Source of the DNA: Allorhizobium borbori
GTDB taxonomy: Bacteria > Pseudomonadota > Alphaproteobacteria > Rhizobiales > Rhizobiaceae
Assembly: GCF_014196535.1 (NCBI RefSeq)
Contig: NZ_JACIDU010000008.1
Location: 1 to 64,000 of the forward strand
DNA: 64,000 bases
Direction: 5' to 3'
The position numbers were made by a program, and so were the translations under genes. Below are positions 22,830-37,103 of the stretch, piece after piece. Under the pieces are notes generated by a model. That model worked only from the letters and a program-made list of their open reading frames with translations, had not been told where the DNA came from and did no database searches. How positions within the stretch are numbered: the stretch's first letter is position 1; every line of letters starts with the position of its first letter.

Positions 22830-23816
22830 TCAGACCGGCTCGAGCCGCTCCAGATAGGGCAGTTCATCGGGCTCGATAACCTGCGCCACCGCCTGAATGC
22901 GCAGCATGGCGCGCTGGCGGGAAATCTTCAGGTGATGAACAAGCGCAGCCTGCGCGCCCGGCACATCGCCCGCCTGAAGCCGCGCCACGATCTCCAGATG
23001 TTCCGGCAGGAACGGTTCGGTATCGAACAGTTCGCTGGTCCAGCGATAGAGGAAATGGTGGGCGACCAGCAACGCCTGCGGCAGGCTGATGGCGCGCATC
23101 AGCGCGTCATTGCCGCAATGGCCGAGCAGTTCCACATGCAGTTCCTGCTCAAGCGCGTCGAGCGCCTCGCCATCGGCGTCGACCGCCGCAAGGGCGGCTT
23201 CGATATGGGCGCGCATTCGGGCAAGCAGCCCCTCCGGCAGATTGGTGGCCGCCTTTTCCAGCGCCAGCGGCTCCAGCACCCAGCGCAGCTCGTAAAGCTC
23301 TTCAATATGCTTTGGTGTCAGCGCCGGCGCGTACCAGCGCCCCTTGTCATCCTTCTGTACGATGCCGCGCTGCTGTAACCGCGCCACCACGTCCCGCGCC
23401 ACGGTGCGGCTTACACCGTAATGCCTGGCAAGCACCGCTTCATTGATTCGCCAACTGGCCAGCGATGTGCGCGAGACGATCTCGATTTCGATGTCGGGAT
23501 AAATGAGTTCCCAACTCGGCAGGAAGTGAATTTTAGGATCGTCCGGTTCGGCCGGAGCGACCGGCACCATCATCGGCGCATCGGCCAAGGCCACCACGTC
23601 GTAACCGCGCGATTCCGCCTTGCGCACATGGCCCAGACGCTCCAGTTCCGTCAGCGCCTGACGTGCGGGGGCGCGGCTGATGCCGAAGCGCTCCGCCACC
23701 GCCGTTTCAGTCAACCGCGTGCCGGCGCTGAGCAGGCCGGCTGCAATATCGGCTACCAGCGCCTCGCAGGCCCGCCGGTAAAGCTTCGGCGCAATGGCTG
23801 TGACCTGGCTGCACAT
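22830..23816 (-). CDS. GntR-type regulator with two winged-helix domains and an FCD domain
   Basis: 328 residues, about 100 longer than an ordinary FadR-group protein. There are two winged helices: residues about 10-75 ('TETAVAERFGISRAPARQALTEL') and about 115-175 ('NEAVLARHYGVSRTVARDVVARLQQRG'; core 'RHYGVSRTVARDVVARL'). An FCD ligand domain follows from about 180 to 315 ('ELYELRWVLEPLALEKAA'; ending 'HLKISRQRAMLRI'). The doubled DNA-binding region implies recognition of an extended or asymmetric operator by one dimer. Start chosen at ATG 23816 behind AAGGAAGG; the frame is open upstream. Divergent from an Ldh-type dehydrogenase gene. Confidence 0.82.
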   Translation of the reverse strand: MCSQVTAIAPKLYRRACEALVADIAAGLLSAGTRLTETAVAERFGISRAPARQALTELERLGHVRKAESRGYDVVALADAPMMVPVAPAEPDDPKIHFLPSWELIYPDIEIEIVSRTSLASWRINEAVLARHYGVSRTVARDVVARLQQRGIVQKDDKGRWYAPALTPKHIEELYELRWVLEPLALEKAATNLPEGLLARMRAHIEAALAAVDADGEALDALEQELHVELLGHCGNDALMRAISLPQALLVAHHFLYRWTSELFDTEPFLPEHLEIVARLQAGDVPGAQAALVHHLKISRQRAMLRIQAVAQVIEPDELPYLERLEPV

Positions 23817-23941
23817 TCGGCGGCAAACCTTCCTTGAACCGGTGTTTCGCACGGAGAATGGGACACGAAGCCTCATCCCGCAACCGCGACCATGGACGAT
23901 CCACAGATCCGGGGGTTGCGCATCATAACACAAACGTCTAG

Positions 23942-23956
23942 TGTATGCACAATACA
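23942..23956. promoter_or_regulatory. Dyad TGTAT-N5-ATACA in divergent gntR/ldh promoter
   Basis: A perfect 5-bp inverted repeat with a 5-nt centre, 34 nt upstream of the dehydrogenase ATG and 126 nt upstream of the double-headed GntR gene. It is a candidate operator for that regulator; binding is inferred. Confidence 0.4.
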
Positions 23957-23989
23957 TTTTACGTGATGGCGTTGGGAGGCGCTTGCACG

Positions 23990-25057
23990 ATGTCGCAGAC
24001 CAAATCGCAGATGAGCGTCCCGCTTGCTGCGCTTGATGAGTTTTGCCGCCGGGTAATCAGCGCGTGCGGGGCGAATGAGGCCACAGCCGATGCCGCGACG
24101 CGGGCGATGATGCACGGCACCCGCCACGGCGTGGACAGCCACGGCATTCGCCTTCTGCCCCACTACATTCAGGCGCTGGAGGGCGGGCGGCTGAACAAGG
24201 CGCCACAGCTTCGAACAGTCACCAACTTCGGCGCGGTGGAAACGCTGGATGCCGACAATGCGCAGGGCGCACTCGCTGCCTATACCGGCATGCAGCGCGC
24301 GATTGCGCTGGCCAGCGCGTTCGGCATCGGCGCGGTTGCCATCCGCAACACTTCGCATTTCGGTCCTGCCGGTGCCTTCTCCATCGAAGCGGCACGGCAG
24401 GGCCTGATCGGCTTCACCTTCTGCAACTCGGACAGTTTCGTGCGACTGCATGACGGCGCGGAAAAGTTCCACGGCACCAACCCCATTGCGGTAGCAGCGC
24501 CCTCATCCGGCGAAAACCCATGGCTGCTCGACATGGCAACCAGCGCCGTGCCCTTCAACCGCGTTCTGCTCTATCGAAGCCTCGGCAAGCATCTGCCTGC
24601 CGCCGTCGCCTCGGATGCACGGGGCTTCGATACGCAAGATGCGAGTAACGCCCAAATGCTGGCGCCACTTGGCGGCGAATTCGGCTTCAAGGGAGCCGCC
24701 CTGGCCGGTGTCGCGGAAATTCTCAGCGCCATCTTGACCGGAATGAAGCTGTCCTTCGACATCGCGCCGATGCAAGGCCCCGATTTCTCCGCACCAAGGG
24801 GCATGGGGGCCTTCGTGCTGGCCATCAAACCCGATGCATTCATCGATCGCGATACCTTTGACCGGGGCATGGCGCGCTATCTGGAGACACTGCGTGCCTC
24901 ACAACCAAGGGAAAGCTGCCGGGTGATGGCACCCGGCGACCGCGAATGGGCGGTGGCAGCACTCCGCGACAAGCTGGGCGTGACCGTTGATCCGGTCACG
25001 CTCGTTGCCTTCGAAAGACTGGCGCGGCGCTACGCCGTACCCATGCCCAGCCCTTAA
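23990..25057 (+). CDS. Ldh-family (type 2 malate/L-lactate/ureidoglycolate) NAD(P)-dependent dehydrogenase
   Basis: 355 residues. The family markers are 'HGVDSHGIRLLPHYIQAL' near residue 50 (core 'DSHGIRLLPHY') with the catalytic His, 'AIRNTSHFGPAGAFS' and 'NPIAVAAPS' for cofactor binding, and 'LDMATSAVPFN'. The family includes YlbA-, ComC- and DpkA-like 2-hydroxy or imino acid dehydrogenases. I prefer ATG 23990 (GGGAGG 10 nt upstream) to the upstream in-frame ATGs. It is controlled, by position, by the divergent double-headed GntR protein, and probably oxidises a 2-hydroxy acid of the same sugar-acid catabolism. Confidence 0.85.
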   Translation: MSQTKSQMSVPLAALDEFCRRVISACGANEATADAATRAMMHGTRHGVDSHGIRLLPHYIQALEGGRLNKAPQLRTVTNFGAVETLDADNAQGALAAYTGMQRAIALASAFGIGAVAIRNTSHFGPAGAFSIEAARQGLIGFTFCNSDSFVRLHDGAEKFHGTNPIAVAAPSSGENPWLLDMATSAVPFNRVLLYRSLGKHLPAAVASDARGFDTQDASNAQMLAPLGGEFGFKGAALAGVAEILSAILTGMKLSFDIAPMQGPDFSAPRGMGAFVLAIKPDAFIDRDTFDRGMARYLETLRASQPRESCRVMAPGDREWAVAALRDKLGVTVDPVTLVAFERLARRYAVPMPSP

Positions 25058-25219
25058 AACAACCGGCGGACACCGAACAGGGAGGAGAGAAGCCGCACCG
25101 TGGCGCAAAGCCGCGGCATGGATTTCTTTGCCTAATAAAATCAATTAATTCAGTGGCTTAATTCAATAATTCATTCATTTCGACGGTTGACTTTGGAGCG
25201 AAAGCGGTTTTACTGAGGA

Positions 25220-25244
25220 AAGTGGTCAGACAACATGACCACTT
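25220..25244. promoter_or_regulatory. Long dyad upstream of gntR and TRAP operon
   Basis: AAGTGGTCA and TGACCACTT form a perfect 9-bp inverted repeat around GACAACA, 35 nt before the regulator ATG. It includes GGTCAGACAAC, the element recurring in this window. The site is well placed for autoregulation. The preceding spacer from 25058 is AT-rich and holds no gene that I can see. Confidence 0.5.
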
Positions 25245-25279
25245 GCGCACCAGGGGAGTGGTTGCGCGGGAGGGACCCA

Positions 25280-25993
25280 ATGTTCGTGGCTTTGGAGCCG
25301 CGCCGCCTTTACCGGCAGGTCGCGGAACAGATTCGTATACTCATCGAAACGGGCGAACTGAAAGCGGGTGCGAAGCTGCCTGCGGAACGTGAGCTGTCGG
25401 AACGGTTCGGCGTATCCCGTCCGACCGTTCGGGAAGCGCTGATCGTTCTCGAGGTGGAAGGCTATCTGCAGATCCGCATGGGATCGGGCGTCTACATCAA
25501 CCGCAAACCGCAACCGATGACGGATGCAGTTCCGGTCGATGACAGCGATGGCCCGTTCGAAATTCTTGAGGCTCGCCTCCTCATCGAAAGCGGCATTGCC
25601 GAGGAAGCGGCCCGGCGGGCAACGCCTGCAAGCATCGCGCGGATCGATGACATCCTCGCGCGCATGGAAGCCGGACTTGAAAAGCCACAATTGGCTCTGA
25701 CCTGCGACAGGGCATTTCACACCGCAATTGCCGACATCATCGGGAACTCGGCGCTCAACCGCTTCACCGGCCTGATCTACGACAGGCGGATGACACCTTA
25801 TTTCGAAAAGCTCGCGAGCTACTTCGAAGGCCCGCACACCTGGCGGCTGGCGCTTGAGGAACACAAGGCCATTCGCGATGCCATCGCCGCCGGCAATCCA
25901 TCCGCCGCTCGCGAGGCGATGCGCCAGCACCTGACGCTGGCGCAAAAGAGATTCTCTGAAAGCTTCGGGGAGGAGCCGTCCAGAGAGGACTGA
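25280..25993 (+). CDS. GntR-family (FadR/FCD subgroup) regulator of the downstream TRAP operon
   Basis: 237 residues. Winged helix at about 5-75 with 'LPAERELSERFGVSRPTVREALIVLEVEGYLQIRMGSGVYI' (core 'RFGVSRPTVREALIVLE'). The FCD domain has Asp/His positions in 'CDRAFHTAIADIIGN' and 'LEEHKAIRDAI'. ATG 25280 is preceded by GGGAGGG. It precedes the dctPQM-idnD-uxuAB genes on the same strand by 65 nt. Relatives of this type next to uxuAB respond to fructuronate or mannonate-type ligands (ExuR/UxuR analogues); that ligand is inference. Confidence 0.88.
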   Translation: MFVALEPRRLYRQVAEQIRILIETGELKAGAKLPAERELSERFGVSRPTVREALIVLEVEGYLQIRMGSGVYINRKPQPMTDAVPVDDSDGPFEILEARLLIESGIAEEAARRATPASIARIDDILARMEAGLEKPQLALTCDRAFHTAIADIIGNSALNRFTGLIYDRRMTPYFEKLASYFEGPHTWRLALEEHKAIRDAIAAGNPSAAREAMRQHLTLAQKRFSESFGEEPSRED

Positions 25994-26029
25994 CCCCGCC
26001 GCGAGAGCGCGACGCGGGATTTGAAACGC

Positions 26030-26040
26030 TTATCTGACAT
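26030..26040 (+). promoter_or_regulatory. Half-conserved GntR-type element before second dctP
   Basis: TTATCTGACAT lies 18 nt upstream of the dctP ATG and shares TCTGACA with the dyad at 12147. One arm is poorly conserved, so the call is weak. Confidence 0.25.
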
Positions 26041-26058
26041 CAGTTTCGGGAGGAAAAA

Positions 26059-27033
26059 ATGACGATCAGATTGAAGACCTTGCTGGGTGCAGCCGCGGCC
26101 ATCGCCATGTCCAGCCTCGCAGCCCATGCGGAAACCGCACTGAAGTGGGCGCATGTCTACGAAACCTCGGAGCCCTTCCACACGGAATCCGTCTGGGCGG
26201 CGCAGGAGATCGCAAAGCGCACCGACGGCCGCTACAAGATCGACGTCTTCCCGGCCTCGCAGCTCGGCAAGGAAGCCGACCTGAACCAGGGCCTCAAGCT
26301 CGGCACCGTCGACATCATCATCTCCGGCTCGAGCTACGCCGCCCGGGACTACAAGCCGATCGGCGTCACCTACTATCCCTACATCTTCCGCGATGCGAGC
26401 CATCTGATCGCCTATACGAAGAGCGACATCTTCAAGCGCCTCGCCAAGGGCTATGAGGACAAGACCGGCAACCACATTGCCGCCGTCACCTATTACGGCA
26501 CGCGTCACACCACATCCAACAAGCCCATCGAAAAATGCGCCGATCTGAACGGCGTTAAGATGCGCGTGCCGGATGTGCCGGCCTATCTCGCCATGCCGCG
26601 CGCCTGCGGCGCCAACACCACGCCGATCGCCTTCGCCGAAGTCTATCTGGCGCTTCAGAACGGCACGGTGGATGCGCAGGAAAACCCGCTGACCACCATC
26701 GAGGCCAAGAAGTTCTACGAAGTGCAGAAGAACATCGTGCTCACCGGCCACATCGTCGACCACCTGAACACGCTGTTCTCGAAGAAGCTGTGGGACAGCC
26801 TGTCCGATGCCGACAAGAAGACCTTCAGCGAGGTCGCTCAGGAAGCTTCCGAACGGGCCTCCAAGAAGATCGAGGCGCGCGAGAAGGAACTCGTCGCCGA
26901 ATTCAAGACAAAGGGCATCAATGTCACCGAGGTCGACAAGACCGATTTCGAGAAGAACGTCCAGGAAAAGGTCAAGCTGGAGGACTTCGGCTACGTGAAG
27001 GCCGATTGGGAAGCCATCCGCGCCGTCAAGTGA
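26059..27033 (+). CDS. dctP: TRAP transporter substrate-binding protein (DctP family)
   Basis: 324 residues with a signal peptide of about 24 residues (MTIRLKTLLG...LAAHA). DctP-fold features include 'LNGVKMRVPDVPAYLAM' with the carboxylate-binding Arg and 'LALQNGTVDAQENPLTTI'. ATG behind GGGAGGAAAAA. It heads an operon with dctQ, dctM, idnD-like, uxuA and uxuB, so the imported ligand is probably a hexuronate or hexonate such as idonate, fructuronate or mannonate (context inference). Stem-loops between it and dctQ suggest higher expression of the binding protein than of the permease. Confidence 0.92.
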   Translation: MTIRLKTLLGAAAAIAMSSLAAHAETALKWAHVYETSEPFHTESVWAAQEIAKRTDGRYKIDVFPASQLGKEADLNQGLKLGTVDIIISGSSYAARDYKPIGVTYYPYIFRDASHLIAYTKSDIFKRLAKGYEDKTGNHIAAVTYYGTRHTTSNKPIEKCADLNGVKMRVPDVPAYLAMPRACGANTTPIAFAEVYLALQNGTVDAQENPLTTIEAKKFYEVQKNIVLTGHIVDHLNTLFSKKLWDSLSDADKKTFSEVAQEASERASKKIEAREKELVAEFKTKGINVTEVDKTDFEKNVQEKVKLEDFGYVKADWEAIRAVK

Positions 27034-27041
27034 TCCGCCAC

Positions 27042-27066
27042 GGCGCGGCCATCTGAAGGCCGCGCC
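27042..27066 (+). terminator. Attenuator-like hairpin after dctP
   Basis: GGCGCGGCC pairs perfectly with GGCCGCGCC around a 7-nt loop, followed by TGTCTTTC. It sits 8 nt after the dctP stop inside the operon, where partial termination or 3'-end protection would raise binding-protein levels relative to the permease. Confidence 0.5.
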
Positions 27067-27094
27067 TGTCTTTCAATCGGGCTTTCCCGAAGAA

Positions 27095-27152
27095 CCCCTC
27101 TGACCAGCGACCTTCTCCCTTGCAAGAGAAGAGCCGGCGGCGGCCAGAGGGG
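27095..27152. repeat. Bipartite palindromic intergenic repeat (Rhizobiales type)
   Basis: The outer arms CCCCTCTG (27095-27102) and CAGAGGGG (27145-27152) enclose an inner hairpin CTTCTC (27112-27117) and GAGAAG (27126-27131). The nested layout and the wording of the arms resemble dispersed palindromic intergenic repeats found in many copies in Agrobacterium/Rhizobium genomes. Only one copy is recognisable here; the family assignment is from memory. Confidence 0.45.
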
Positions 27153-27184
27153 AACACCGCCCCTTTACAAACTGGATGTTCTCA

Positions 27185-27763
27185 ATGTCTGCGACGCAGG
27201 AAATCCATACCCAGGTGACGCCTGAGGAACTTGCCCACACGTTCGATGAAGCGCCCGTCGACGTCGATCTGAAGGTTTACGCGCCGGAGGATTGGATCAC
27301 CATGGCGCTGTTCTGGCTGATGGCCGGTTGCGTGTTCCTGCAATTCTTCACCCGTTACGTGCTTAACGACAGCTATGCCTGGACGGAGGAAATCGCGGTA
27401 AACTGCCTGATCGGCGTCGTCTTCCTCGGTTCGGTGATGTGCGTGCGCATGTCGCGCCACATCCAGGTGGACGTGCTCTACCACTACCTGCCGGCCCGCC
27501 TCACCCGCATCATGGCGACCCTGGTCGATATCGCCCGCATCGCCTTCTTCGCCTACGGCTCATGGCTGATGTGGCGCTATCTCGAAATCGTCGGTGAGGA
27601 AGAGATGGTCACGGTGGAACTGCCGCGCAACATTGTCTTCTACAGCGTATTCGCCGCCTTCGTGCTGATGCTCGCCCGCTCGATCCAGGTCTTCATCGCC
27701 AACATGCGCCGTGGATATTCCGTGCTCGAACGCCCGGAAGCCTTCCAGAACGCCGAGGATTAA
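27185..27763 (+). CDS. dctQ: TRAP transporter small permease (DctQ family)
   Basis: 192 residues with four hydrophobic segments. An unusually long N-terminal cytoplasmic stretch of about 35 residues precedes the first helix. The DctQ signature region is 'AWTEEIAVNCLIGVVFLGSVMCVRMSRHIQVDV' (core 'FLGSVMCVRMSRHIQ'). Starts at ATG 27176 or 27185 are both possible; neither has a strong ribosome site. It is followed after 4 nt by dctM. Together they form the membrane part of the transporter fed by the upstream DctP. Confidence 0.87.
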   Translation: MSATQEIHTQVTPEELAHTFDEAPVDVDLKVYAPEDWITMALFWLMAGCVFLQFFTRYVLNDSYAWTEEIAVNCLIGVVFLGSVMCVRMSRHIQVDVLYHYLPARLTRIMATLVDIARIAFFAYGSWLMWRYLEIVGEEEMVTVELPRNIVFYSVFAAFVLMLARSIQVFIANMRRGYSVLERPEAFQNAED

Positions 27764-27767
27764 TTCC

Positions 27768-29174
27768 ATGCTCCTTCTCATCGGTTCCTTTCTCGGCCTG
27801 ATGGTGCTCGGTCTGCCCGTCGCCATCTCCATGGCCTCCGCCTCGCTGCTCTACATCATCTTTTACAATGTCGCGCCCGACATCATCGCCGCCCAGCGGC
27901 TCATCGCCGGCGTGGAAAGCTTCCCGCTGCTGGCCGTGCCCTTCTTCATTCTCGCCGGCAACCTCATGAACATCGCAGGCGTCACCGGCCGCATTTACGC
28001 TTTCGCGGTGGCGCTCGTCGGCTGGATGAAGGGCGGGCTTGCTCAGGTGAACATCATCGGCTCCGTGGTGTTTTCCGGCATGTCCGGCACCGCTCTGGCC
28101 GATGCCGCCGGCATCGGCACCATCGAGATCAAGGCCATGAAGGACCACGGCTACCCGGTTGAGGCCGCCGTCGGCGTCACCGCCGCCTCCGCCACCCTCG
28201 GCCCGATCTTCCCGCCATCGCTGCCCTTCGTCATCTACGGCATGATGGCCAATGTCTCGATCGGCGCGCTGTTCATGGCCGGCATCGTTCCCGGTGTCGT
28301 CATGACCGTGCTGATGATGCTGACCGTGGCAGTTTTCGCCTACATCAAGCGCTGGGGTTCCGACACGCCGTTCAGCATCAAGAACCTGCTGGGCGCATCG
28401 CTGGAAGTCTTCGTTGTGTTGATGGTGCCGACCGGTATATGGCTGCTCACGCTGACCGGCCTGTCGCTCAACTGGTCGATCTTCATCGCGCTCCTCGTGC
28501 TGCTCGCCTGCGACTGGTATTTCGATTTCTCGGCCGTGATGGCGCTGATGACCCCGGTCATCCTGATCGGCGGCATGACCATGGGCTGGTTCACGCCGAC
28601 GGAAGCCGCCGTCGCCGCCGTACTCTGGTCGCTGTTCCTCGGCCTCGTGCGCTACCGCTCGATGACCTTCAGGACGCTTGCCAAGGCAACGCTGGATACG
28701 GTGGAAACCACGGCCTCCGTGCTGTTCATCGTCGCCGCCGCCTCCGTCTTCGCCTGGCTTCTCACCGTCAGCCAGACAGCGCAGCTTCTCTCCGATGCGA
28801 TCCTGTCGATCACCAGCAACAAGTGGGTGTTCCTCATTCTCGTCAACCTGCTGATGCTGTTTGTCGGTTGCTTCCTCGATACGATCGCCGCGATCACCAT
28901 TCTCGTGCCAATCCTGATGCCGCTCCTGAAGACTTTCGGCATCGATCCGGTGCATTTCGGCCTCATCATGACACTCAACCTCATGATCGGCCTGCTGCAC
29001 CCGCCGCTCGGCATGGTGCTGTTCGTTCTGTCGCGCGTCGCCAAGCTTTCGGTCGAACGCACGACGATGGCGATCATTCCCTGGCTCGTGCCCCTGTTCA
29101 TCGCGCTTCTGCTCATCACCTTCATCCCGGCCATCACGCTTTGGCTGCCGACGGAGATGGGACTGATCCGCTAA
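27768..29174 (+). CDS. dctM: TRAP transporter large permease (DctM family)
   Basis: 468 residues, about twelve hydrophobic segments. The DctM hallmarks are 'FPLLAVPFFILAGNLMNIAGVT' near residue 50 (core 'PFFILAGNLMN') and 'SATLGPIFPPSLPFVIYGMMANVSIGALFMAGIVPG' (core 'LGPIFPPSLPFVIYG'). I start at ATG 27768, 4 nt after the dctQ stop, with GAGG inside the end of dctQ. The Na+-coupled channel subunit, expected to import the sugar acid bound by DctP. Confidence 0.92.
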   Translation: MLLLIGSFLGLMVLGLPVAISMASASLLYIIFYNVAPDIIAAQRLIAGVESFPLLAVPFFILAGNLMNIAGVTGRIYAFAVALVGWMKGGLAQVNIIGSVVFSGMSGTALADAAGIGTIEIKAMKDHGYPVEAAVGVTAASATLGPIFPPSLPFVIYGMMANVSIGALFMAGIVPGVVMTVLMMLTVAVFAYIKRWGSDTPFSIKNLLGASLEVFVVLMVPTGIWLLTLTGLSLNWSIFIALLVLLACDWYFDFSAVMALMTPVILIGGMTMGWFTPTEAAVAAVLWSLFLGLVRYRSMTFRTLAKATLDTVETTASVLFIVAAASVFAWLLTVSQTAQLLSDAILSITSNKWVFLILVNLLMLFVGCFLDTIAAITILVPILMPLLKTFGIDPVHFGLIMTLNLMIGLLHPPLGMVLFVLSRVAKLSVERTTMAIIPWLVPLFIALLLITFIPAITLWLPTEMGLIR

Positions 29175-29191
29175 GGCATGCACATTCTCTC

Positions 29192-29226
29192 CCGCTCACC
29201 TTCGGGCCCTGCCCGAAGGTGAGCGG
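29192..29226 (+). other. Perfect 16-bp stem-loop between dctM and idnD-like gene
   Basis: CCGCTCACCTTCGGGC pairs with its exact complement at 29211-29226 around a CCT loop. There is no U tract (GAAAC follows), so it is more likely a processing, stabilising or repeat-derived element than a terminator. It would partly separate transporter from enzyme expression. Confidence 0.55.
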
Positions 29227-29263
29227 AAACAAAGCAATCAACATCTTCGAAAGGCATTCAAAC

Positions 29264-30313
29264 ATGCAGACGCGCGTCGCCCGCCTTCACGGCATGCGCG
29301 ACCTTCGGGTCGAAACGCTCGATTATGCCGAACCCGGCCCCGGCGAGGTTATGCTGTCCATGGCCGCCGGTGGCATCTGCGGCTCCGATCTCCATTACTA
29401 TCAGGATGGCGGTTTTGGTCCCGTGCGGGTGCGTGAACCGATCATTTCCGGCCACGAGGCCTCCGGCTTCGTGGCGGCGCTCGGCGCCGGCGTCAGTGGT
29501 CTTGCGATCGGCCAGCTTGTCGCGGTCAATCCGTCCCAACCCTGCGGCCATTGTCATTATTGCAGGCTCGGCCAGCCCATCCATTGCCTTGAAATGCGCT
29601 TCATGGGCTCGGCCATGCGCCTGCCGCACGAAAACGGCATGTTCCGCGACCGGCTCGTGGTGCCCGCCATCCAGTGCCATGCCTTCGGACCGGACACGAC
29701 GCCCGGCGAAGCCGCCTGCGCCGAACCTTTGGCGGTGTGCCTTCACGCCGTGGCCCAGGCGGGGGATCTTTCCGGAAAGACGGTACTCGTCACCGGTGCC
29801 GGTCCCATCGGCCTGTTGACCGTTGCCGCCGCACGCCATGCGGGTGCGGCCGAAATCGTGGTGACAGACCTGACCGACGCCGCTCTTTCACGCGCGCCAG
29901 CGATGGGCGCTTCAAAAACCGTCAATGTCGCAACCAACCCGGAGGGGCTTGCGCCCTGGCAGAAAAACAAGGGCCTCTTCGACGTGGTGTTCGACTGCTC
30001 GGCGGCCGGACCGGCGCTGCGCTCGGCTTTTGCCGCCGTCAAGCCGCGCGGGTTGATCGTGCAGGTGGGGGTGACCGGCGATGTTACCATTCCGCTCAAC
30101 GCGCTGGTTGGCAAGGAAATCACCTGGCGCGGCTCGCAGCGCTTCCACACGGAATTTGCGGACGCCGTGCGCCTCATCTCGGCGCGCGCCATCGACGTGC
30201 GTCCGATCATTTCCCACACATTCCCGCTCGAACAGGCGGTCGAGGCCTTTGAACAGGCTGGCGACCGCGCCGTTGCCTGCAAGGTGCAGATCACCTTCGA
30301 CAGCACGCGCTGA
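29264..30313 (+). CDS. idnD: Zinc-dependent L-idonate 5-dehydrogenase-like protein
   Basis: 349 residues, medium-chain dehydrogenase. The catalytic zinc ligands are Cys in 'GGICGSDLHYY' and the His/Glu in 'SGHEASG'. The structural zinc site shows as 'CGHCHYCRLGQPIHC' with four cysteines. NAD binding is at 'VLVTGAGPIGLLTV'. The 'CGSDLHYYQDGGFGPVRVREPIISGHE' stretch (core 'GGFGPVRVREP') is typical of L-idonate 5-dehydrogenase, which makes 5-keto-gluconate; L-gulonate-type substrates giving fructuronate are also possible and would feed the uxuB/uxuA genes next door. The frame is open far upstream, antisense-free coding potential begins at ATG 29264. Confidence 0.82.
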   Translation: MQTRVARLHGMRDLRVETLDYAEPGPGEVMLSMAAGGICGSDLHYYQDGGFGPVRVREPIISGHEASGFVAALGAGVSGLAIGQLVAVNPSQPCGHCHYCRLGQPIHCLEMRFMGSAMRLPHENGMFRDRLVVPAIQCHAFGPDTTPGEAACAEPLAVCLHAVAQAGDLSGKTVLVTGAGPIGLLTVAAARHAGAAEIVVTDLTDAALSRAPAMGASKTVNVATNPEGLAPWQKNKGLFDVVFDCSAAGPALRSAFAAVKPRGLIVQVGVTGDVTIPLNALVGKEITWRGSQRFHTEFADAVRLISARAIDVRPIISHTFPLEQAVEAFEQAGDRAVACKVQITFDSTR

Positions 30314-30331
30314 CATGCAAAGGACAACACG

Positions 30332-31528
30332 ATGAGACATACATGGCGTTGGTTTGGCCCGGTGGACAAGGTCACGGTGCGCGATGCCGCCCAAGCGGGC
30401 GCGCAAGGCATCGTCAGCGCGCTGCACCACATTGCGACCGGCGAGGTCTGGCCCGTCGCCGAGATCGAGAAACGCCACGCGGAAATCCGCGCCGGTGGCC
30501 TTGTCTGGGACGTGGTGGAAAGCGTGCCGGTTTCGGAATCCATCAAGACACAGACCGGAGACTGGAAGGCTCACATCGCCAACTGGCAGGAAACCCTGCG
30601 CCGGCTCTCGGCGTCGGGCATCCGCACCGTCTGCTACAATTTCATGCCGGTTCTTGACTGGACGCGCACAGACCTGCGCTGGGAGACCCGTCACGGCGCG
30701 AAAGCCATGCGCTTCGACCTGCCGGATTTCGCGGCCTTCGACATCCACATCCTCAAGCGTCCAGCGGCGAAAGACGATTATCCGGACTGGCTGGTAGAAG
30801 AGGCAGCGAAGCGCTTCTCCGAAATGCCCGAAGCAAAGATTGTCGCCCTCGGCAAGAACATCGGCGCCGGCCTGCCCGGCTCGGCGGATGGCTATACGCT
30901 GGCGCAGTTGCTCGAAAAGCTGCGCAGCTATGAGGGCACGAACCGCGCGCGGCTTCAGCAGAACCTCGTCGATTTCCTGTCGGAAGTGACACCCGTCGCC
31001 GAACAGGTCGGCATCAACATCTGCGCCCACGGCGACGATCCGCCGTGGGCGCTGCTCGGCCTGCCGCGCATCCTCTCCACCGAAGCGGATTACGCCCATA
31101 TGCTCTCGCAGGTGAACAGCCGCGCCAATGGCGTGACGCTTTGCACCGGCTCGCTCGGCGCACGGGCCGATAACGACCTGCCCTTCATCGCCACCCGCTT
31201 TGCAGACCGCATCCACTTCGTCCACCTGCGCAACGTGACGCGGGAAACCGATACCGTGCCCTGCTCCTTCTTCGAGGACGAGCATCTGGAAGGCGGCACG
31301 GATATGGTCGCGGTAATTGCTGCGTTGCTGGCCGAAGAGAGCCGCCGCCGCGAGGAAGGCCGCGACGACCATGAAATTCCGATGCGCCCCGACCACGGGC
31401 AGGAAATTCTTGATGACCTGACGCGAGGCGCCCAACCCGGCTATCCCGCCATCGGACGGCTCAAGGGCCTTGCCGAATTGCGTGGTATCGAGCGCACGCT
31501 TCTTCATTCCCGCTACGGACTGGTATGA
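30332..31528 (+). CDS. uxuA: Mannonate dehydratase
   Basis: 398 residues, the size of UxuA (a xylose-isomerase-like TIM barrel that binds Mn/Fe). Diagnostic segments are 'MRHTWRWFGPVDKV' at the start, 'GIRTVCYNFMPVLDWTRTDL' (core 'CYNFMPVLDWTRTD'), 'CAHGDDPPWALLGLPRI' and 'PMRPDHGQEILDD' with metal-ligand His/Asp residues. It dehydrates D-mannonate to 2-keto-3-deoxygluconate (KDG). Its end overlaps uxuB by four bases. No KDG kinase or aldolase is in the window. Confidence 0.95.
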   Translation: MRHTWRWFGPVDKVTVRDAAQAGAQGIVSALHHIATGEVWPVAEIEKRHAEIRAGGLVWDVVESVPVSESIKTQTGDWKAHIANWQETLRRLSASGIRTVCYNFMPVLDWTRTDLRWETRHGAKAMRFDLPDFAAFDIHILKRPAAKDDYPDWLVEEAAKRFSEMPEAKIVALGKNIGAGLPGSADGYTLAQLLEKLRSYEGTNRARLQQNLVDFLSEVTPVAEQVGINICAHGDDPPWALLGLPRILSTEADYAHMLSQVNSRANGVTLCTGSLGARADNDLPFIATRFADRIHFVHLRNVTRETDTVPCSFFEDEHLEGGTDMVAVIAALLAEESRRREEGRDDHEIPMRPDHGQEILDDLTRGAQPGYPAIGRLKGLAELRGIERTLLHSRYGLV

Positions 31529-32928
31529 AACCCATGCAACAGCTTTCCGCGAAAACCACCCTGCCGCCGCATGTTGCCCGCCCGACCTATGACCGTTCGA
31601 CCCTGAAACCCGGCATCCTCCATATCGGTCTCGGCGCTTTCCACCGGGCGCACCAGGCCGTGTTCACACAGCGCGCGCTGGAGGCCGAATTCGGCCCGTG
31701 GGGCATCGTCGCCGTCAACCTGCGTTCGCCGGAACCGGTTGCGGCGCTCGCCGCTCAGGACGGGCTCTATTCCGTGACCACGCGCGGCAAGGCGGATGAC
31801 CGTTCCGAGGTGATCGGCGCGACCGTGGACTGGATCTGCGCCGCGCAAAACCGGCAGAAGGTGCTGGATTATCTGGCCAGCCCGGAAATCCGCATCGTCA
31901 CCCTCACCGTGTCGGAAAAGGCCTATGGCCTGCATCCCGTCACCGGCGGGCTGGATACCGATCACCCCTCCGCGGCCGCCGATCTCGCCAACCCGCACCA
32001 ACCCACCGGTCCTATCGGCTTTCTGGTGGAGGGGCTGGCGCTGCGCCGTGCCGCAGGCGTGAAACCCTTTACCGTCTTGTGCTGTGACAACCTTCCCGCC
32101 AACGGCCATGTGGTGCGCCGCCTCGTGCTCGACATGGCCGAACGGCGCGATCCGGCGCTCGCCCGCTGGATTGCCGAGAACAGCGCCTTTCCCTGTTCCA
32201 TGGTCGACCGCATCGTGCCCGCCGCAACCACAGCCACGCGCGAACGCGCCGAGCGGTTGCTCGGCGTGACGGATGCGCTGGCGCTCGATACCGAACCCTT
32301 CATTCAGTGGGTGATCGAGGACAATTTTGTTTCCGGGCGCCCGAAATGGGAAGCGGGAGGAGCAATCTTTGCCGAACATGCCGAACCCTATGAGAAGATG
32401 AAGCTCCGGCTTTTGAACGGCACCCATACGCTTCTCGCCCATCTCGGCATCATCCACGATCTGGAATGTACCCGCGATGTGATGGCTGTGCCGGAACTGG
32501 CGGCGGAAGCCCGCCGGCATCTCGATGCCACGGTGAAGACACTCGACCCCGTGCCCGGCATCGACCTTGCCGCCTATATGGACCAGTTGATGGAGCGCTT
32601 CGCCAACCCGACGATCGCCCACCGCTGCACCCAGATCGCCCTCGATACGACGCAGAAAATCCCTCAGCGCCTCTTCGTGCCCGCTATCGAGGTGCTGGCC
32701 CAACGGGGCGACGCGGCCGCCTTCGCCCATGTGGTCGGTATCTGGATCAAGGCGGTGCGCAAGCGCGGCGATTGCGATGATCCGCGCCGCGACGAAATTC
32801 TCGCCGCGGCAGCGAACATCGACCCCGCTGATCCCTCCGCGTCCTTCTTCGCCATTCCCGGCCTTTTCCCGCCGGAACTGATCGCGGCGAGAGGCTGGCG
32901 TGATCTGGTGAACAGGGAACTCAGGTAG
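31525..32928 (+). CDS. uxuB: D-mannonate oxidoreductase / fructuronate reductase (mannitol dehydrogenase family)
   Basis: 467 residues, long-chain polyol dehydrogenase. Early 'ILHIGLGAFHRAHQAVFTQ' is the family cofactor/substrate motif, and 'LRLLNGTHTLLAHLG' in the C-terminal domain contains the catalytic Lys-Asn-His neighbourhood ('KMKLRLLNGTH'). In UxuB, NADH reduces D-fructuronate to D-mannonate, the substrate of the co-translated UxuA (ATGA overlap). Mannitol or arabinitol dehydrogenase activity is a weaker alternative, disfavoured by the context. Confidence 0.88.
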   Translation: MKPMQQLSAKTTLPPHVARPTYDRSTLKPGILHIGLGAFHRAHQAVFTQRALEAEFGPWGIVAVNLRSPEPVAALAAQDGLYSVTTRGKADDRSEVIGATVDWICAAQNRQKVLDYLASPEIRIVTLTVSEKAYGLHPVTGGLDTDHPSAAADLANPHQPTGPIGFLVEGLALRRAAGVKPFTVLCCDNLPANGHVVRRLVLDMAERRDPALARWIAENSAFPCSMVDRIVPAATTATRERAERLLGVTDALALDTEPFIQWVIEDNFVSGRPKWEAGGAIFAEHAEPYEKMKLRLLNGTHTLLAHLGIIHDLECTRDVMAVPELAAEARRHLDATVKTLDPVPGIDLAAYMDQLMERFANPTIAHRCTQIALDTTQKIPQRLFVPAIEVLAQRGDAAAFAHVVGIWIKAVRKRGDCDDPRRDEILAAAANIDPADPSASFFAIPGLFPPELIAARGWRDLVNRELR

Positions 32929-32939
32929 TCAGAGCCCGC

Positions 32940-34094
32940 TCAGCCCATCACCCGTGCAACCTCGCGCACGAGGCTTTCTGCCGAGATTTCGCTGATCGAC
33001 TTCGCGCCGGTCAGCGTCATTGCCACCTTCATTTCCTTGGCGAAAATGTCGAGCAGGTTCTCAACACCGGCCTGCCCCGCCGTGGCCAGCGCATAGACGA
33101 AGGCCCGGCCGATGAGAACGCCATCCGCACCCTGCGCGATCATCCGTACGACATCGAGACCGGAGCGGATGCCTGAGTCCGCAAAGATCGCCAGATCGCC
33201 CTTGACCGCATCGGCAATGGCCGGCAGCGCACGCGCCGACGACAGGACGCCGTCAAGCTGGCGGCCACCGTGGTTCGACACCACGATGCCATCGGCACCG
33301 AAGCGCACCGCGTCCTTCGCGTCCTCGGGATCAAGAATGCCCTTGATGATCATCGGCCCCTTCCAGAACTCACGGATCCATTCCAGATCGGACCAGCCGA
33401 TGGACGGGTCGAAATTGGCGCCGAGCCAGCCGATATAATCGGCGAGATTGGTCGGCTCACCACGGTATTTCGAGATATTGCCGAGATCGTGCGGTTTGCC
33501 CAACAGCCCGACATCGACAGCCCAACGAGGATGCGTCACCGCCTGCAAAATACGCCGCGCCGGTGCGTTGGGACCCGACATGCCGGAATGGGCGTCGCGA
33601 TAGCGCGCACCCGGCACCGGCATATCCACGGTAAAGACCAGCTTGCGGATGCCCGCATCCCAGGCGCGTTCCAGCGCATTCTTCATGAAGCCCCGATCCC
33701 TAAGCACGTAAAGCTGGAACCAGATGGGCTTGGCGACCTGCGACTGCACCTCCTCGATAGGGCAAACCGAGACGGTGGACAGCGTCATCGGAATGCCCTT
33801 CCTGGTCGCCGCACGCGCCGCCTGCACTTCGCCGCGCCGGGCAAACATGCCGGTGAGGCCGACGGGCGCCAGCGCCACAGGCATGGCGACATGTTCATCA
33901 AAGAACTTCGAGGTGATATCCACCTCGCCGACGCTTTTCAGCACGAGCTGGCGCAAGGCCAGTCCCGCGAGATCATCGACATTGCGGCGAAGCGTATGCT
34001 CGGCATAGGCGCCGCCGTCGATATAGTGAAACAGGAAGGGCGGCAGCCGGCGACGAGCGGCCTCGCGGTAATCCGATGCAGATGAAATGATCAT
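32940..34094 (-). CDS. lldD: FMN-dependent L-lactate dehydrogenase
   Basis: 384 residues, alpha-hydroxy-acid oxidase family. FMN and substrate contacts are visible in '[19 protein letters not shown]', '[12 protein letters not shown]' and '[12 protein letters not shown]', which holds the catalytic His and Arg. '[32 protein letters not shown]' (core '[12 protein letters not shown]') is the phosphate-binding end. It oxidises L-lactate to pyruvate and feeds quinones at the membrane. Overlaps the stop of the upstream lldR gene by four bases, giving an lldRD operon without lldP. Convergent with uxuB. Confidence 0.93.
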
Positions 34095-34846
34095 GGCTTT
34101 GCCTCCTCCAGCAAAAGCGTGTTGTGAGCAAGGGTGGCGCGACGGCTGCGAGCCACCTCCTCCTCGATATGTCTCAGACCGTCTTCCACGAAGGCCAGAT
34201 GATCGGTGACGGCCATGCGGGCCTTGTCCGCCTCGCCGGCAAGGATAGCCGCAACAATGGCCCGGTGTTGCCGATCCAGCTTTTCCACCGTCTGCGGCAG
34301 ACGGAAGAGTTGCTTCAGGCTCTCGGCAATGCTGATGCGCATCAGTTCGAAAAGCCCCGCCATGACCTGCCGCAGCACGGCATTGTGCGAGGCCTCGGCA
34401 ATTGCCATGTGGAACGCGGCGTCGGCCTGTGCCTGCACCGCCGGGTCGCTGCTGCCCTCACCCGAGACGGCCTCAAGCGCGGCGACCAGCCGGGCCTTGT
34501 CCGCCTCCGTGGCCCGCTGGGCGGCAAAAAAGGCGGCGTCGGTATCAAGCGTTTTGCGGAGTTCCATCACATCGCGCCAGAAGCCGTTTTCCAGACGTAC
34601 GAGCCCGCCCAGCGGCCGTAATGCCCGCTCGAAGATAAAGCCGGCGCCGGGTTCGGCCACATAGGTGCCGCCGCCCTGCCGTGTCGTGACGATGCCACGA
34701 CTGATGAGTTCGCGCATGGCCTCGCGCAGCCGCGACCGCGACACGCCCAGTTCGGCCGCCAACGCCCGTTCAGCCGGTAGCCGGTCGCCCGGCTGAAGCC
34801 TCCGCGCCGACATCAACGCCTCGATCTGATGGACAAGCGTGACCAT
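34091..34846 (-). CDS. lldR: GntR-family L-lactate-responsive regulator
   Basis: 251 residues. Winged helix at about 5-70 with '[31 protein letters not shown]' (core '[16 protein letters not shown]'). The FCD domain has '[18 protein letters not shown]' and '[11 protein letters not shown]' metal/ligand residues. ATG 34846 follows GGAGG; the ten residues upstream in frame are not supported. Co-transcribed with lldD, as in E. coli lldPRD. Two palindromes that match the LldR consensus flank the promoter. Confidence 0.9.
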
Positions 34847-34857
34847 TACGCCTCCAT

Positions 34858-34870
34858 TTGGCCCTACCAA
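34858..34870. promoter_or_regulatory. LldR operator candidate 1 (promoter-proximal)
   Basis: TTGGCCCTACCAA is a palindromic element 12 nt upstream of the lldR ATG. It matches the LldR core TNGTNNNACNA with one substitution. Confidence 0.5.
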
Positions 34871-34942
34871 TTTCAACGATCAGCATCGACAATGGCATAA
34901 TGACTTGAAACGTTGCAAGCTTTGCAGAAATAATGCGCATAT

Positions 34943-34953
34943 TGGTAGGACCA
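34943..34953. promoter_or_regulatory. LldR operator candidate 2 (distal)
   Basis: TGGTAGGACCA fits TNGTNNNACNA exactly and lies 73 nt from the proximal site, directly before the stop codon of the upstream gene. A two-operator arrangement around the promoter is known for E. coli lldPRD. Confidence 0.55.
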
Positions 34954-35850
34954 CTATGCCGGAGCGATCTCGATAGAGGCAAGCATCGTGGAGCGCGCGG
35001 TTTCGAGATGCACATGGCTGACCGTGCGGGCCTTCTCGATATCGCCGCTGCGCAGGCCGGCGATATAGGCGAGATGCTCATGAAGGGCGACGTGATTGCG
35101 CTCCTTCTCGTATTTCTTGTTCCACTGGTAATGGTAGTGGAAGATCGCCGACATCACGCCCTGAATGTTGCTGAAAAAGCGGTTGGGCGCGACGCTGTTG
35201 ATGAGCTTGTGGAAGCGGTGATCGAGTTCCGAAAAGTCACGATAACGGCGATCGAAATCGGCGAGAAGCGCGTGGTGTTGCGCTTCGATACCCGCCAGCG
35301 CCTCCCAGGCGGCGTGCCCCTTCGGCAGCGCGACGAAGCGATCGACGGCGCGAAATTCCATGACTTCGCGCATGTCGAACAGTTCCTCGACGAAGTCGAC
35401 CGTCAGCCCCAACGCCCGCCAGCGCCCGTTGCTCTGCCGTTCCAGAAGACCGAAATGGCTGAATTTGTTCAGGCACTCGCGGATGGCCGACGTCGAAACA
35501 CCGAACTGGCGGGCAAGATCGAGCCCATTGATGACGCCGCCAGGATGGCAATCGGGACCGACCATCCACGCCATGAACTTGCGCTCCAACATGTCGGCGA
35601 CAGGCTCGAGATCGGCGGAATCGAGATAATCGGCGCGTGACGGCAGCCGCAGAAGACGTCTTTCCCGTCCCTCCTGCCCCACGATGCCGCGCTCCACCAG
35701 ACCGGCAATAACGGCGCGTACCGTCGTGCGGCTCACGCCAAGCTGTGCGGCAAGGGTCGGCTCGGAAGCCAGAACCTCGCCCGGCGCACGGCCTGCGAGA
35801 AGATCGAGACACTGATTGTACGCCCGCTTGTAGACCCCATTGGTCTTCAT
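34954..35850 (-). CDS. GntR-type regulator with two winged-helix domains and an FCD domain (second example)
   Basis: 298 residues. First winged helix about 10-70 ('SEPTLAAQLGVSRTTVRAVIAGLVERG'; core 'AQLGVSRTTVRAVIAGL'). Second about 85-150 ('GLDLARQFGVSTSAIRECLNKFSHFGLL'; core 'RQFGVSTSAIRECLNKF'). FCD domain about 155-290 with 'DFVEELFDMREVMEFRAVDR' and ligand residues in 'LDHRFHKLINS' and 'HEHLAYIAGL'. The architecture copies that of the protein at 22830. Start set at ATG 35850, 9 nt after GGAGAG; a GTG at 35877 is the alternative. Divergent from uxaB-lgoD-uxaA and so the probable regulator of that operon. Confidence 0.83.
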   Translation of the reverse strand: MKTNGVYKRAYNQCLDLLAGRAPGEVLASEPTLAAQLGVSRTTVRAVIAGLVERGIVGQEGRERRLLRLPSRADYLDSADLEPVADMLERKFMAWMVGPDCHPGGVINGLDLARQFGVSTSAIRECLNKFSHFGLLERQSNGRWRALGLTVDFVEELFDMREVMEFRAVDRFVALPKGHAAWEALAGIEAQHHALLADFDRRYRDFSELDHRFHKLINSVAPNRFFSNIQGVMSAIFHYHYQWNKKYEKERNHVALHEHLAYIAGLRSGDIEKARTVSHVHLETARSTMLASIEIAPA

Positions 35851-35897
35851 GTCCGACTTCTCTCCGTCGGCTTTCACGCCTGTTTTTTTCGTCTGAT

Positions 35898-35913
35898 TTT
35901 TTTACATAAAAAA
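35898..35913. promoter_or_regulatory. AT-rich palindrome upstream of uxaB operon
   Basis: TTTTTTA-CA-TAAAAAA is a perfect inverted repeat in the 134-nt region between the double-headed gntR and uxaB, 72 nt before the uxaB ATG. It may be the operator or simply an AT-rich promoter element. Confidence 0.35.
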
Positions 35914-35984
35914 CAAATTGCGGGCAAGTCGAATGTCTTTTATCCAAAAAGAACAGACAAAATGACCCTTGAAGGCAAGACACC

Positions 35985-37103
35985 ATGAGCGGCATCGTTC
36001 TCCAGTTCGGCACGAGCCGGTTTCTTCAGGCTCATGCCGATCTCTTTCTCCACGAGGCAAGGACTGCCGGACAGGATGTGCCACCGGTGGTGATCGTGCA
36101 AACGTCCGGCTCCGCCCAACGTGCCGGGCGGCTGGCCGCCTTTTCCAATCCCGAGGGTTACCCCGTCATCATCCGCGGCTTAGAAGACGGCGTGCCGGTG
36201 GAACGCCACATCGCGGTGAAAAGCGTTTCGCGTGGACTTTCCACGGCAACGGACTGGGCGGAAATTGTCGATCTCTTCGTCAATGACGCCGGCTATATCC
36301 TCTCGAATACCGGCGACTCCGGCTATGCCGTCGATTTTACCGAGGCCGAACGGGGGCTCGATGCGGCAGAACCCTTCGCGTCTTTTCCCGGCAAGCTGGC
36401 ACAGCTTCTCCACGCCCGGTTCCGCAATGGCGGCGGGCCGCTCACCGTGTTGCCCTGTGAACTCATCAACGGCAATGGCCCGGCACTGAAGGGCATCGTA
36501 AATGACTTCTCGCTGAAAGCCGGCGCGGATGCGCTCTTCCTGCGCTGGCTGGACGATCAGGTGATCTTCGCCAACACGCTGGTCGACCGTATCGTTTCCG
36601 AACCGCTGGAGCCGGCGGGTGCGGTCGCCGAACCCTATGCGCTGTGGGCAATCCAGAACGCGCCGGGGCTTCGCCTGCCCTGCACACATCCCGCCATCAT
36701 CCTTGCCGACGAGATTGAGCCCTTCGAGCGCCTGAAGCTTCATATCCTCAATCTCGGCCACACCGTTCTGGCCGAGATCTGGCAGGTGGAGGACCGCCCG
36801 AAGGACGAGACGGTCAGGGCCATTCTGGCCGATAGCGCCGTCCGCACCCGGCTGGATGCGCTTTATCGTGACGAAGTCGTTCCTGGCTTTGCCGCAAAAG
36901 GCATGGGCGAGGAAGCCAAAGCTTATGTGGAAACGACCCTCGGCCGCTTTCTCAACCCCTATCTCGACCACCGCATCGCCGACATAGCCGGCAACCACGC
37001 GCTGAAGATCGAACGACGTATTACCGCCTTTCTCGACTGGGCGGGCACGCCTGCCCCCACCCTTGAAGCCATCGCTGCCAAAACCCCGAGGACCCCATCA
37101 TGA
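35985..37103 (+). CDS. uxaB: Tagaturonate reductase / mannitol dehydrogenase family protein
   Basis: 372 residues, shorter than UxuB. The family start motif is 'VLQFGTSRFLQAHADLFLHEA', and the catalytic-domain motif is 'FERLKLHILNLGHTVLAEIW' (core 'KLHILNLGHT'). 'LPCELINGNG' is also conserved. UxaB reduces D-tagaturonate to D-altronate with NADH. The gene is followed by an L-galactonate-dehydrogenase-like gene and uxaA, the enzymes on either side of this step, which supports the call. It overlaps the next gene by four bases. Confidence 0.86.
   Translation: MSGIVLQFGTSRFLQAHADLFLHEARTAGQDVPPVVIVQTSGSAQRAGRLAAFSNPEGYPVIIRGLEDGVPVERHIAVKSVSRGLSTATDWAEIVDLFVNDAGYILSNTGDSGYAVDFTEAERGLDAAEPFASFPGKLAQLLHARFRNGGGPLTVLPCELINGNGPALKGIVNDFSLKAGADALFLRWLDDQVIFANTLVDRIVSEPLEPAGAVAEPYALWAIQNAPGLRLPCTHPAIILADEIEPFERLKLHILNLGHTVLAEIWQVEDRPKDETVRAILADSAVRTRLDALYRDEVVPGFAAKGMGEEAKAYVETTLGRFLNPYLDHRIADIAGNHALKIERRITAFLDWAGTPAPTLEAIAAKTPRTPS

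Follow-up and report, generated by a model that had tools for sequence, protein, structure and literature searches.

Two tandem winged-helix FCD regulators and their predicted nested operators in a sugar-acid gene cluster of Allorhizobium borbori

We analysed the first 64,000 nucleotides of contig NZ_JACIDU010000008.1 of Allorhizobium borbori (NCBI RefSeq assembly GCF_014196535.1), hereafter the window, which is a sugar-acid catabolic cluster and encodes, on its minus strand, two FCD-type GntR regulators with two winged helix–turn–helix (wHTH) heads each. A first-pass annotation had placed two GntR helices before a single FCD domain in both proteins; the open reading frames were confirmed at 22830..23816 (P0001, 328 amino acids) and 34954..35850 (P0002, 298 amino acids), and Pfam and AlphaFold bore out the layout. 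In P0001, a member of what we call family 1, the first GntR winged helix (W1, recognition helix FGISRAPARQAL, 48.6 bits) is encoded at 23604..23783, the second (W2, recognition helix YGVSRTVARDVV, 27.5 bits) at 23334..23504, and the FCD effector and dimerisation domain (residues 173–296 by Pfam) at 22929..23300. In P0002, of family 2, W1 (recognition helix LGVSRTTVRAVI, 33.5 bits) lies at 35665..35787, W2 (recognition helix FGVSTSAIRECL, 21.6 bits), which has lost the equivalent of FadR Arg45 (R45), at 35419..35520, and FCD (Pfam residues 156–283) at 35002..35385. Both heads are thus N-terminal to FCD, and a scan of all six reading frames of the 4.81-Mb genome scored each of the four separately.

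The GntR profile (PF00392, cut-off 27) matched two stretches per protein, with 65.1 bits for P0001 and 50.3 bits for P0002, and the FCD profile (PF07729, cut-off 24.3) matched one stretch per protein, with 64.3 and 47.2 bits. W2 of P0002 was the weakest head and by itself fell under the cut-off of 27, but it is backed by the AlphaFold model and by a structural match that spans W2 and FCD. Three other FCD regulators scanned in the window each had a single GntR stretch. P0001 and P0002 share with the FCD subfamily the C-terminal FCD domain and a GntR winged helix N-terminal to it; the usual, although not strictly defining, layout of that subfamily is one winged helix per chain, and because they have two we filed both proteins as a variant of the FCD (FadR/VanR) subfamily. 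The two aligned end to end at 26% identity, with both heads covered. A third tandem-wHTH FCD regulator was found on another contig of the same genome (L057 4994–5974; C16 57993–58973), near genes that by eye resemble those for N-formylglutamate amidohydrolase, creatininase and RraA.

AlphaFold models of the monomers, built from the window proteins and their relatives, reached a mean predicted local distance difference test score (pLDDT) of 87.4 for P0001 and 85.8 for P0002. Each head had three helices and then two short wing strands, at residues 12–74 and 101–163 of P0001 and at residues 5–66 and 84–146 of P0002, so that a prediction that could have shown one helix set not to be a winged helix made winged helices of both. 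On structural comparison, W2 and FCD together superposed on the FCD protein TM0439 (P0001 residues 102–309, Z 19.1, root-mean-square deviation (rmsd) 2.9 over 198; P0002 residues 82–298, Z 20.1, rmsd 3.1 over 202). W1 matched separately: residues 2–80 of P0001 superposed on a GntR winged helix (Z 11.9, rmsd 1.5 over 76) and also on the AraR and PdhR DNA-binding domains (Z 11.0), and residues 1–68 of P0002 on DasR (Z 10.9, rmsd 1.9 over 68). Together, these matches identify W1 as the extra head, and in the models the W2–FCD part looks like an ordinary FCD protein. Among the 50 matches that Foldseek listed per model, every chain was, by its length of 198–278 residues, shorter than P0001 or P0002.

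The arrangement of W1, W2 and FCD in one chain is conserved among relatives. Matches to P0001 occurred in 23 of 151 family-level genomes and matches to P0002 in 50 of the 151 (E up to 1e-25); among those listed, 26 of 26 and 53 of 54, respectively, were near full length, and 3 of these 80 had an internal stop. Our family-1 sample, the best 80 of 133 relatives from named genomes, spanned Agrobacterium, Neorhizobium, Ciceribacter, Aurantimonas, Paracoccus, Roseibium, Inquilinus and Bradyrhizobium, and also held one Brucella pseudogrignonensis genome. Across 62 family-1 sequences the DNA-contact residues of W1 (S47, R48, P50 and R52) were invariant, as were those of W2 (S136, R137, T138 and R141). 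In a mixed alignment of 23 sequences, Pfam found GntR in 23 and FCD in 22. A whole-class profile, run against 388 sampled genomes of the phylum, matched from its position 8 or earlier in at least 44 genomes, of which 22 fall outside the taxonomic class; this is a lower bound, counted by eye among the matches listed with up to six candidates scored per genome, and it leaves out two strong matches starting at position 32, in one genome already counted (G806) and in another (G707). Presumed ordinary FCD proteins matched the profile only from positions 42 to 89, with E values of 7e-39 or weaker. The suggestion that the layout may define a distinct regulator class therefore gains from its conservation and its spread, and annotated plasmid records call the relatives only GntR family regulator (15 of 54 and 6 of 6 rows listed).

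Upstream of family-1 relatives we found a 24-bp nested palindrome, ATGTnTnnTGT-nn-ACAnnAnACAT, in which the outer G/C lies 9.5 bp from the dyad and the inner one 2.5 bp, giving half-sites 7 bp apart. Of 80 family-1 upstream regions, 68 held the pattern ATGTNTNNTGTNNACANNANACAT with up to three mismatches, 75 with up to four and 78 with up to five, whereas the best matches in 1600 base-shuffled regions had four mismatches (8 regions) or five (52 regions). As the pattern had first been read by eye from eleven family-1 loci, an independent motif search that assumed no symmetry was run, and it recovered the same site (dyad 14.5, with the strong bases 9.5 and 2.5 bp to either side of it). Among 60 distinct sites, drawn from 78 after the two loci of 80 without a site were dropped, G stood at −9.5 in 59 and at −2.5 in 60, and C at +9.5 in 60 and at +2.5 in 56. 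The inner part is of the TGT-n2-3-ACA type usual for the FCD subfamily. In the window the predicted operator of P0001, with outer and inner half-sites and two mismatches to the consensus, lies at 23934..23957, between P0001 and the divergent dehydrogenase gene. It is the sole site in the genome with up to two mismatches, but a backward control pattern also matched once, so this uniqueness proves little.

Family 2 (30 loci, 23 distinct sites) showed the same dyad geometry with an inner TAT in place of TGT: the outer G was present in 22 of the 23 sites, the outer C in 17 and an A at −2.5 in 22. Its inner site is thus not TGT-n2-3-ACA, which is usual in the subfamily but not strictly defining; it is BioR-like instead. 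P0002 has two predicted 22-bp operators, copy 1 at 35894..35915 (two mismatches) and copy 2, from the pattern scan, at 35934..35955, 40 bp from copy 1; these were the only family-2 sites with up to three mismatches in the 4.81 Mb, where the control gave 0. Two or more sites occurred in 17 of 30 family-2 regions (L027–L056), and 15 of 18 spacings were 40–45 bp, as scored with a matrix made from those same regions. This distance of about four helical turns suggests two cooperating dimers. It could also be taken to mean that within a dimer the two W1 heads and the two W2 heads sit on separate DNA sites, which they bridge or loop, the more so as the FCD tetramer Atu1419 can loop DNA (parts of PMC7797058); we regard this as very improbable, since outer and inner half-sites have one dyad in common within each single site.

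Whether the palindromes belong to these regulators at all also has to be weighed. Several further GntR regulators are encoded in the same cluster, and orthologous promoters could stay alike by descent, so the sites might be those of another regulator or of promoters. In nine family-1 loci examined, of the 80, the divergent gene belonged to SDR (six), Ldh_2 (two) or DctP (one), and a site with zero to four mismatches was found in seven of them, beside both Ldh_2 and SDR neighbours; one SDR locus (L100) had a weak site with five mismatches, near the shuffle level. That the site follows the regulator gene beside both kinds of neighbour, that family-2 sites in the genome occur only at the P0002 gene and that the family-1 inner site is of the known FCD/VanR type make ownership by another regulator or by promoters very improbable.

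We then compared 99 combinations of half-site spacing and centre width with 20 shuffles, using z values; these take no account of relatedness among the sequences and should not be read as probabilities. The best combination was 7 bp with a 2-bp centre in both family 1 (z 43.7) and family 2 (z 22.6). A fourth group, the clade of the third paralog (28 regions), was best at 7 bp with a 4-bp centre (z 9.7); its operator was looser, with just 6 of 28 regions carrying 10 or more of the 12 letters, and it kept the 7-bp register with a centre 2 bp wider, so that the nested arrangement was clear in families 1 and 2 and weak here. One of nine small subgroups (L184, L188, L189 and L191) had a clear nested site. 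As a single-headed control we took the single-wHTH FCD regulator at 25235–25993 with the 21 best of its 27 matches, and the remaining six, at about 40% identity, were left out; this control gave no strong optimum in the scan, the largest difference being at 8 bp (z 2.6). Upstream of this control regulator and its relatives (L229–L249) there is a motif of three half-sites, TTGGTnnGnCCAnnTnACCA, which form overlapping palindromes.

Atu1419 offers a guide to which head reads which half-site. Its Arg45 contacts a G within ATGTATACAT, and a change to A abolishes binding (parts of PMC7797058); the distance of that G from the dyad, 2.5 bp, was reckoned in the present analysis. W2 occupies the place of Atu1419's single head, and the inner half-sites should therefore be those of W2. 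In family 2, W2 lacks the Arg45 equivalent, having STS, ATT, GTT and similar, while W1 keeps SRTTVR or nearly so; the loss of the arginine from W2 coincides with the change of the inner TGT to TAT, and the outer TGT box is retained. BioR, whose site is TTATMKATAA (parts of PMC4494728), may be a second case of arginine loss with an inner site that has no G. An FCD regulator with one GntR stretch beside bioB (L258 647–1300), likely to be BioR although identified by its neighbourhood only, has His at the Arg45 position (SHVPVR), which could explain the G-less BioR site. The exact BioR site was absent from that locus, where near matches stood before bioB (one mismatch) and before the regulator (two mismatches); in another genome the sequence TTATAGATAA precedes bioB, by eye, as expected for BioR. 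With two evolutionary events, in family 2 and in BioR, it is likely rather than proven, from these sequence comparisons, that the inner half-sites belong to W2 and the outer ones to W1.

The reading we consider probable is that, in P0001 and P0002 as FCD-type GntR regulators, both winged helices of each chain work and the dimer grips one long operator by four heads. FCD would dimerise and would sense a ligand that is probably a sugar acid; members of the subfamily form dimers or tetramers through FCD and bind DNA under ligand control. W2, which directly adjoins FCD and is placed like the single wHTH of VanR-type proteins, would read the inner half-sites 2.5 bp from the dyad, and W1 would read another pair of half-sites, each 7 bp farther from the dyad. 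A single dimer, rather than a tetramer, would then cover the 22–24-bp nested palindrome with four heads and would keep both the regulator gene and the divergent enzyme operon repressed until released by the ligand, repression relieved by a sugar acid being the usual mode of the family and the basis for this step of the proposal. The idea that a dimer would carry four DNA-binding modules had been raised in the first-pass annotation, and the operators, judged by their sequence, look built for four. A double-length operator with two heads suggests a way to make a genetic switch more specific.

Several results weigh against this reading. In the fourth group, with four of its 28 loci dropped for want of a site, a planned comparison of R45 with the inner G was not significant (10 of 22 versus 0 of 2, P 0.49); splitting the group by residue 44 as well gave 10 of 14 versus 0 of 10, a split chosen after seeing the data. 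A further group, group 3, was best in the spacing scan at 4 bp (z 6.1), not 7, and showed the nested arrangement only in part: of its nine distinct sites, all had the inner G and C, seven the G at 9.5 bp and five the C, and the outer box was not TGT. Several of the chosen group-3 sites are 320–450 bp before the gene and so may belong to a neighbour. The W1 of this group has R49 changed to Q, and the R49 position is a phosphate contact in known complexes. A motif search of subgroup g1b (14 loci) gave just apparent conserved coding sequence, eight of the nine small subgroups had no recognisable site, and the family-1 locus with a DctP neighbour (L132) had a weak site with five mismatches, near the shuffle level. 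The boxes of the single-headed control are TGGT, which makes the TGT scan only a mild control, and kinship inflates all shuffle statistics.

The third half-site in the control operator, which lies in the same cluster and belongs to a single-wHTH protein, also counts against four working heads, as do the extra, weaker half-sites that lie 7–12 nt from the centre of FadR-subfamily sites in 13 regulator groups and perhaps hold additional subunits (parts of PMC4494728). Such sites would fit a scheme in which only one head per chain is on DNA at a time, a second conventional dimer occupies the outer half-sites and the other helix makes dimer–dimer contacts or is idle; the two full sites in 17 of 30 family-2 regions likewise mean that several dimers may assemble. 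The published extra boxes, however, score on average about half of the true ones (parts of PMC4494728), whereas the family-1 outer half-sites carry about as much information as the inner ones. The contact residues of W1 are invariant, and the loss of R45 in W2 tracks a change at the inner, not the outer, position. For these reasons we think it unlikely that one head per chain is used at a time.

Preferring the dimer with four heads, we lean towards the view that widespread two-headed GntR repressors carry independently evolving readers at a fixed 7-bp register, their outer and inner specificities changing separately. With a similar leaning, family 2 would have changed W2 together with the inner site, and group 3 W1 together with the outer site. 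If true, this would be a modular two-part recognition code within one of the largest bacterial regulator families.

The origin of the two heads had been tentatively ascribed to an ancient domain duplication, which the phylogeny of the two winged helices does not support. W1 and W2 of the same protein had a mean identity of 19.6%. Against a set of 22 other GntR heads from the genome, W1 averaged 27.0% and W2 21.4%, and the heads of that set averaged 29.8% among themselves. In a tree, all 23 sampled W2 formed one clade (bootstrap 91) with no W1 inside, and 19 of 23 W1 formed another (55), the W1 of family 2 falling elsewhere without support. Because W1 is nearer to other GntR heads than to W2, we rejected internal duplication within the protein as the favoured origin; these sequence data are explained at least as well by a fusion of two GntR heads. 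The divergence of W2 from other heads (21.4%) blurs the comparison, so that an ancient fusion and a very old duplication are both possible.

Both regulator genes are divergent from enzyme genes on the plus strand that are their likely targets, as had been proposed; that these are sugar-acid enzymes is only likely. The gene at 23990..25057, divergent from P0001 and with its start (ATG at 23990) chosen by inspection, is ureidoglycolate-dehydrogenase-like (179.1 bits, cut-off 356), and that at 35985..37103, divergent from P0002, is tagaturonate-reductase-like (193.6 bits, cut-off 359). With both matches under the NCBIfam cut-offs, a sugar-acid role is likely and the substrates that the names imply are provisional. 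Window genes above their own NCBIfam cut-offs included a UxuA-type mannonate dehydratase, LldD and a DctP-type TRAP protein. On pSymB of Sinorhizobium meliloti the family-2 gene stands divergent to a gene of the altronate dehydratase family; a gyrB-annotated gene near that regulator (L256 10272–12707) is possibly a second gyrase-type subunit. A promoter scan of both upstream regions gave no sigma-70-like promoter, which decides nothing. LldR (34091–34876) was dropped as an operator control because it had a match in just 5 of 101 genomes. Around the lldR start, TTTGGCCCTACCAATTT (34857–34873) and TTGGTAGGACCA (34942–34953) appear by eye to be classic FadR-type sites.

GntR/FCD proteins are common bacterial regulators and are treated as having one head per chain and two per dimer. 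A conserved four-head class with a nested operator means that sites should be sought over 22–24 bp and in two registers; it may account for part of the extra half-sites described in the literature around GntR operators, and two readers able to mutate independently are a natural test of recognition evolution. PMC titles and abstract starts yielded no two-wHTH FCD regulator (subscription papers, preprints and domain-architecture databases lay outside this search), and two-headed proteins go unmentioned in the abstract and sections 5, 10 and 17 of Suvorova et al. 2015 (PMC4494728). We do not claim the layout as new to science. The nearest prior statement concerns the extra half-sites described in those parts of that paper.

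Among known systems, the winged helices of DasR and PhnF, from another GntR subfamily, match W1 of P0002 (Z 10.9 and 10.6), but these proteins have a HutC-type effector domain and a single wHTH, unlike P0002. TM0439 of Thermotoga maritima (PDB 3sxy and 3fms) is the best structural match of the W2–FCD part and has FCD but not W1. The extra half-sites of the FadR subfamily are alike in their distance of 7–12 nt, but weaker than the main boxes (parts of PMC4494728). The site of BioR, the alphaproteobacterial FCD/GntR biotin repressor, is TTATMKATAA (parts of PMC4494728) and equals the inner part of the family-2 operators. The BioR candidate beside bioB is like family-2 W2 in being without R45 and, unlike P0002, has a single GntR stretch. 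To our knowledge, no outer half-sites are known for BioR. Atu1419 (VanR) of Agrobacterium fabrum (PDB 6za3) matches the fold of the W2–FCD part of P0001 over residues 99–314 (Z 15.0, rmsd 3.4 over 211) and reads TGT/ACA (parts of PMC7797058), its G lying 2.5 bp from the dyad as in the inner site of family 1; it has one wHTH per chain, a 10-bp palindrome and a tetrameric state, whereas P0001 and P0002 have a second wHTH and a predicted site of 22–24 bp.

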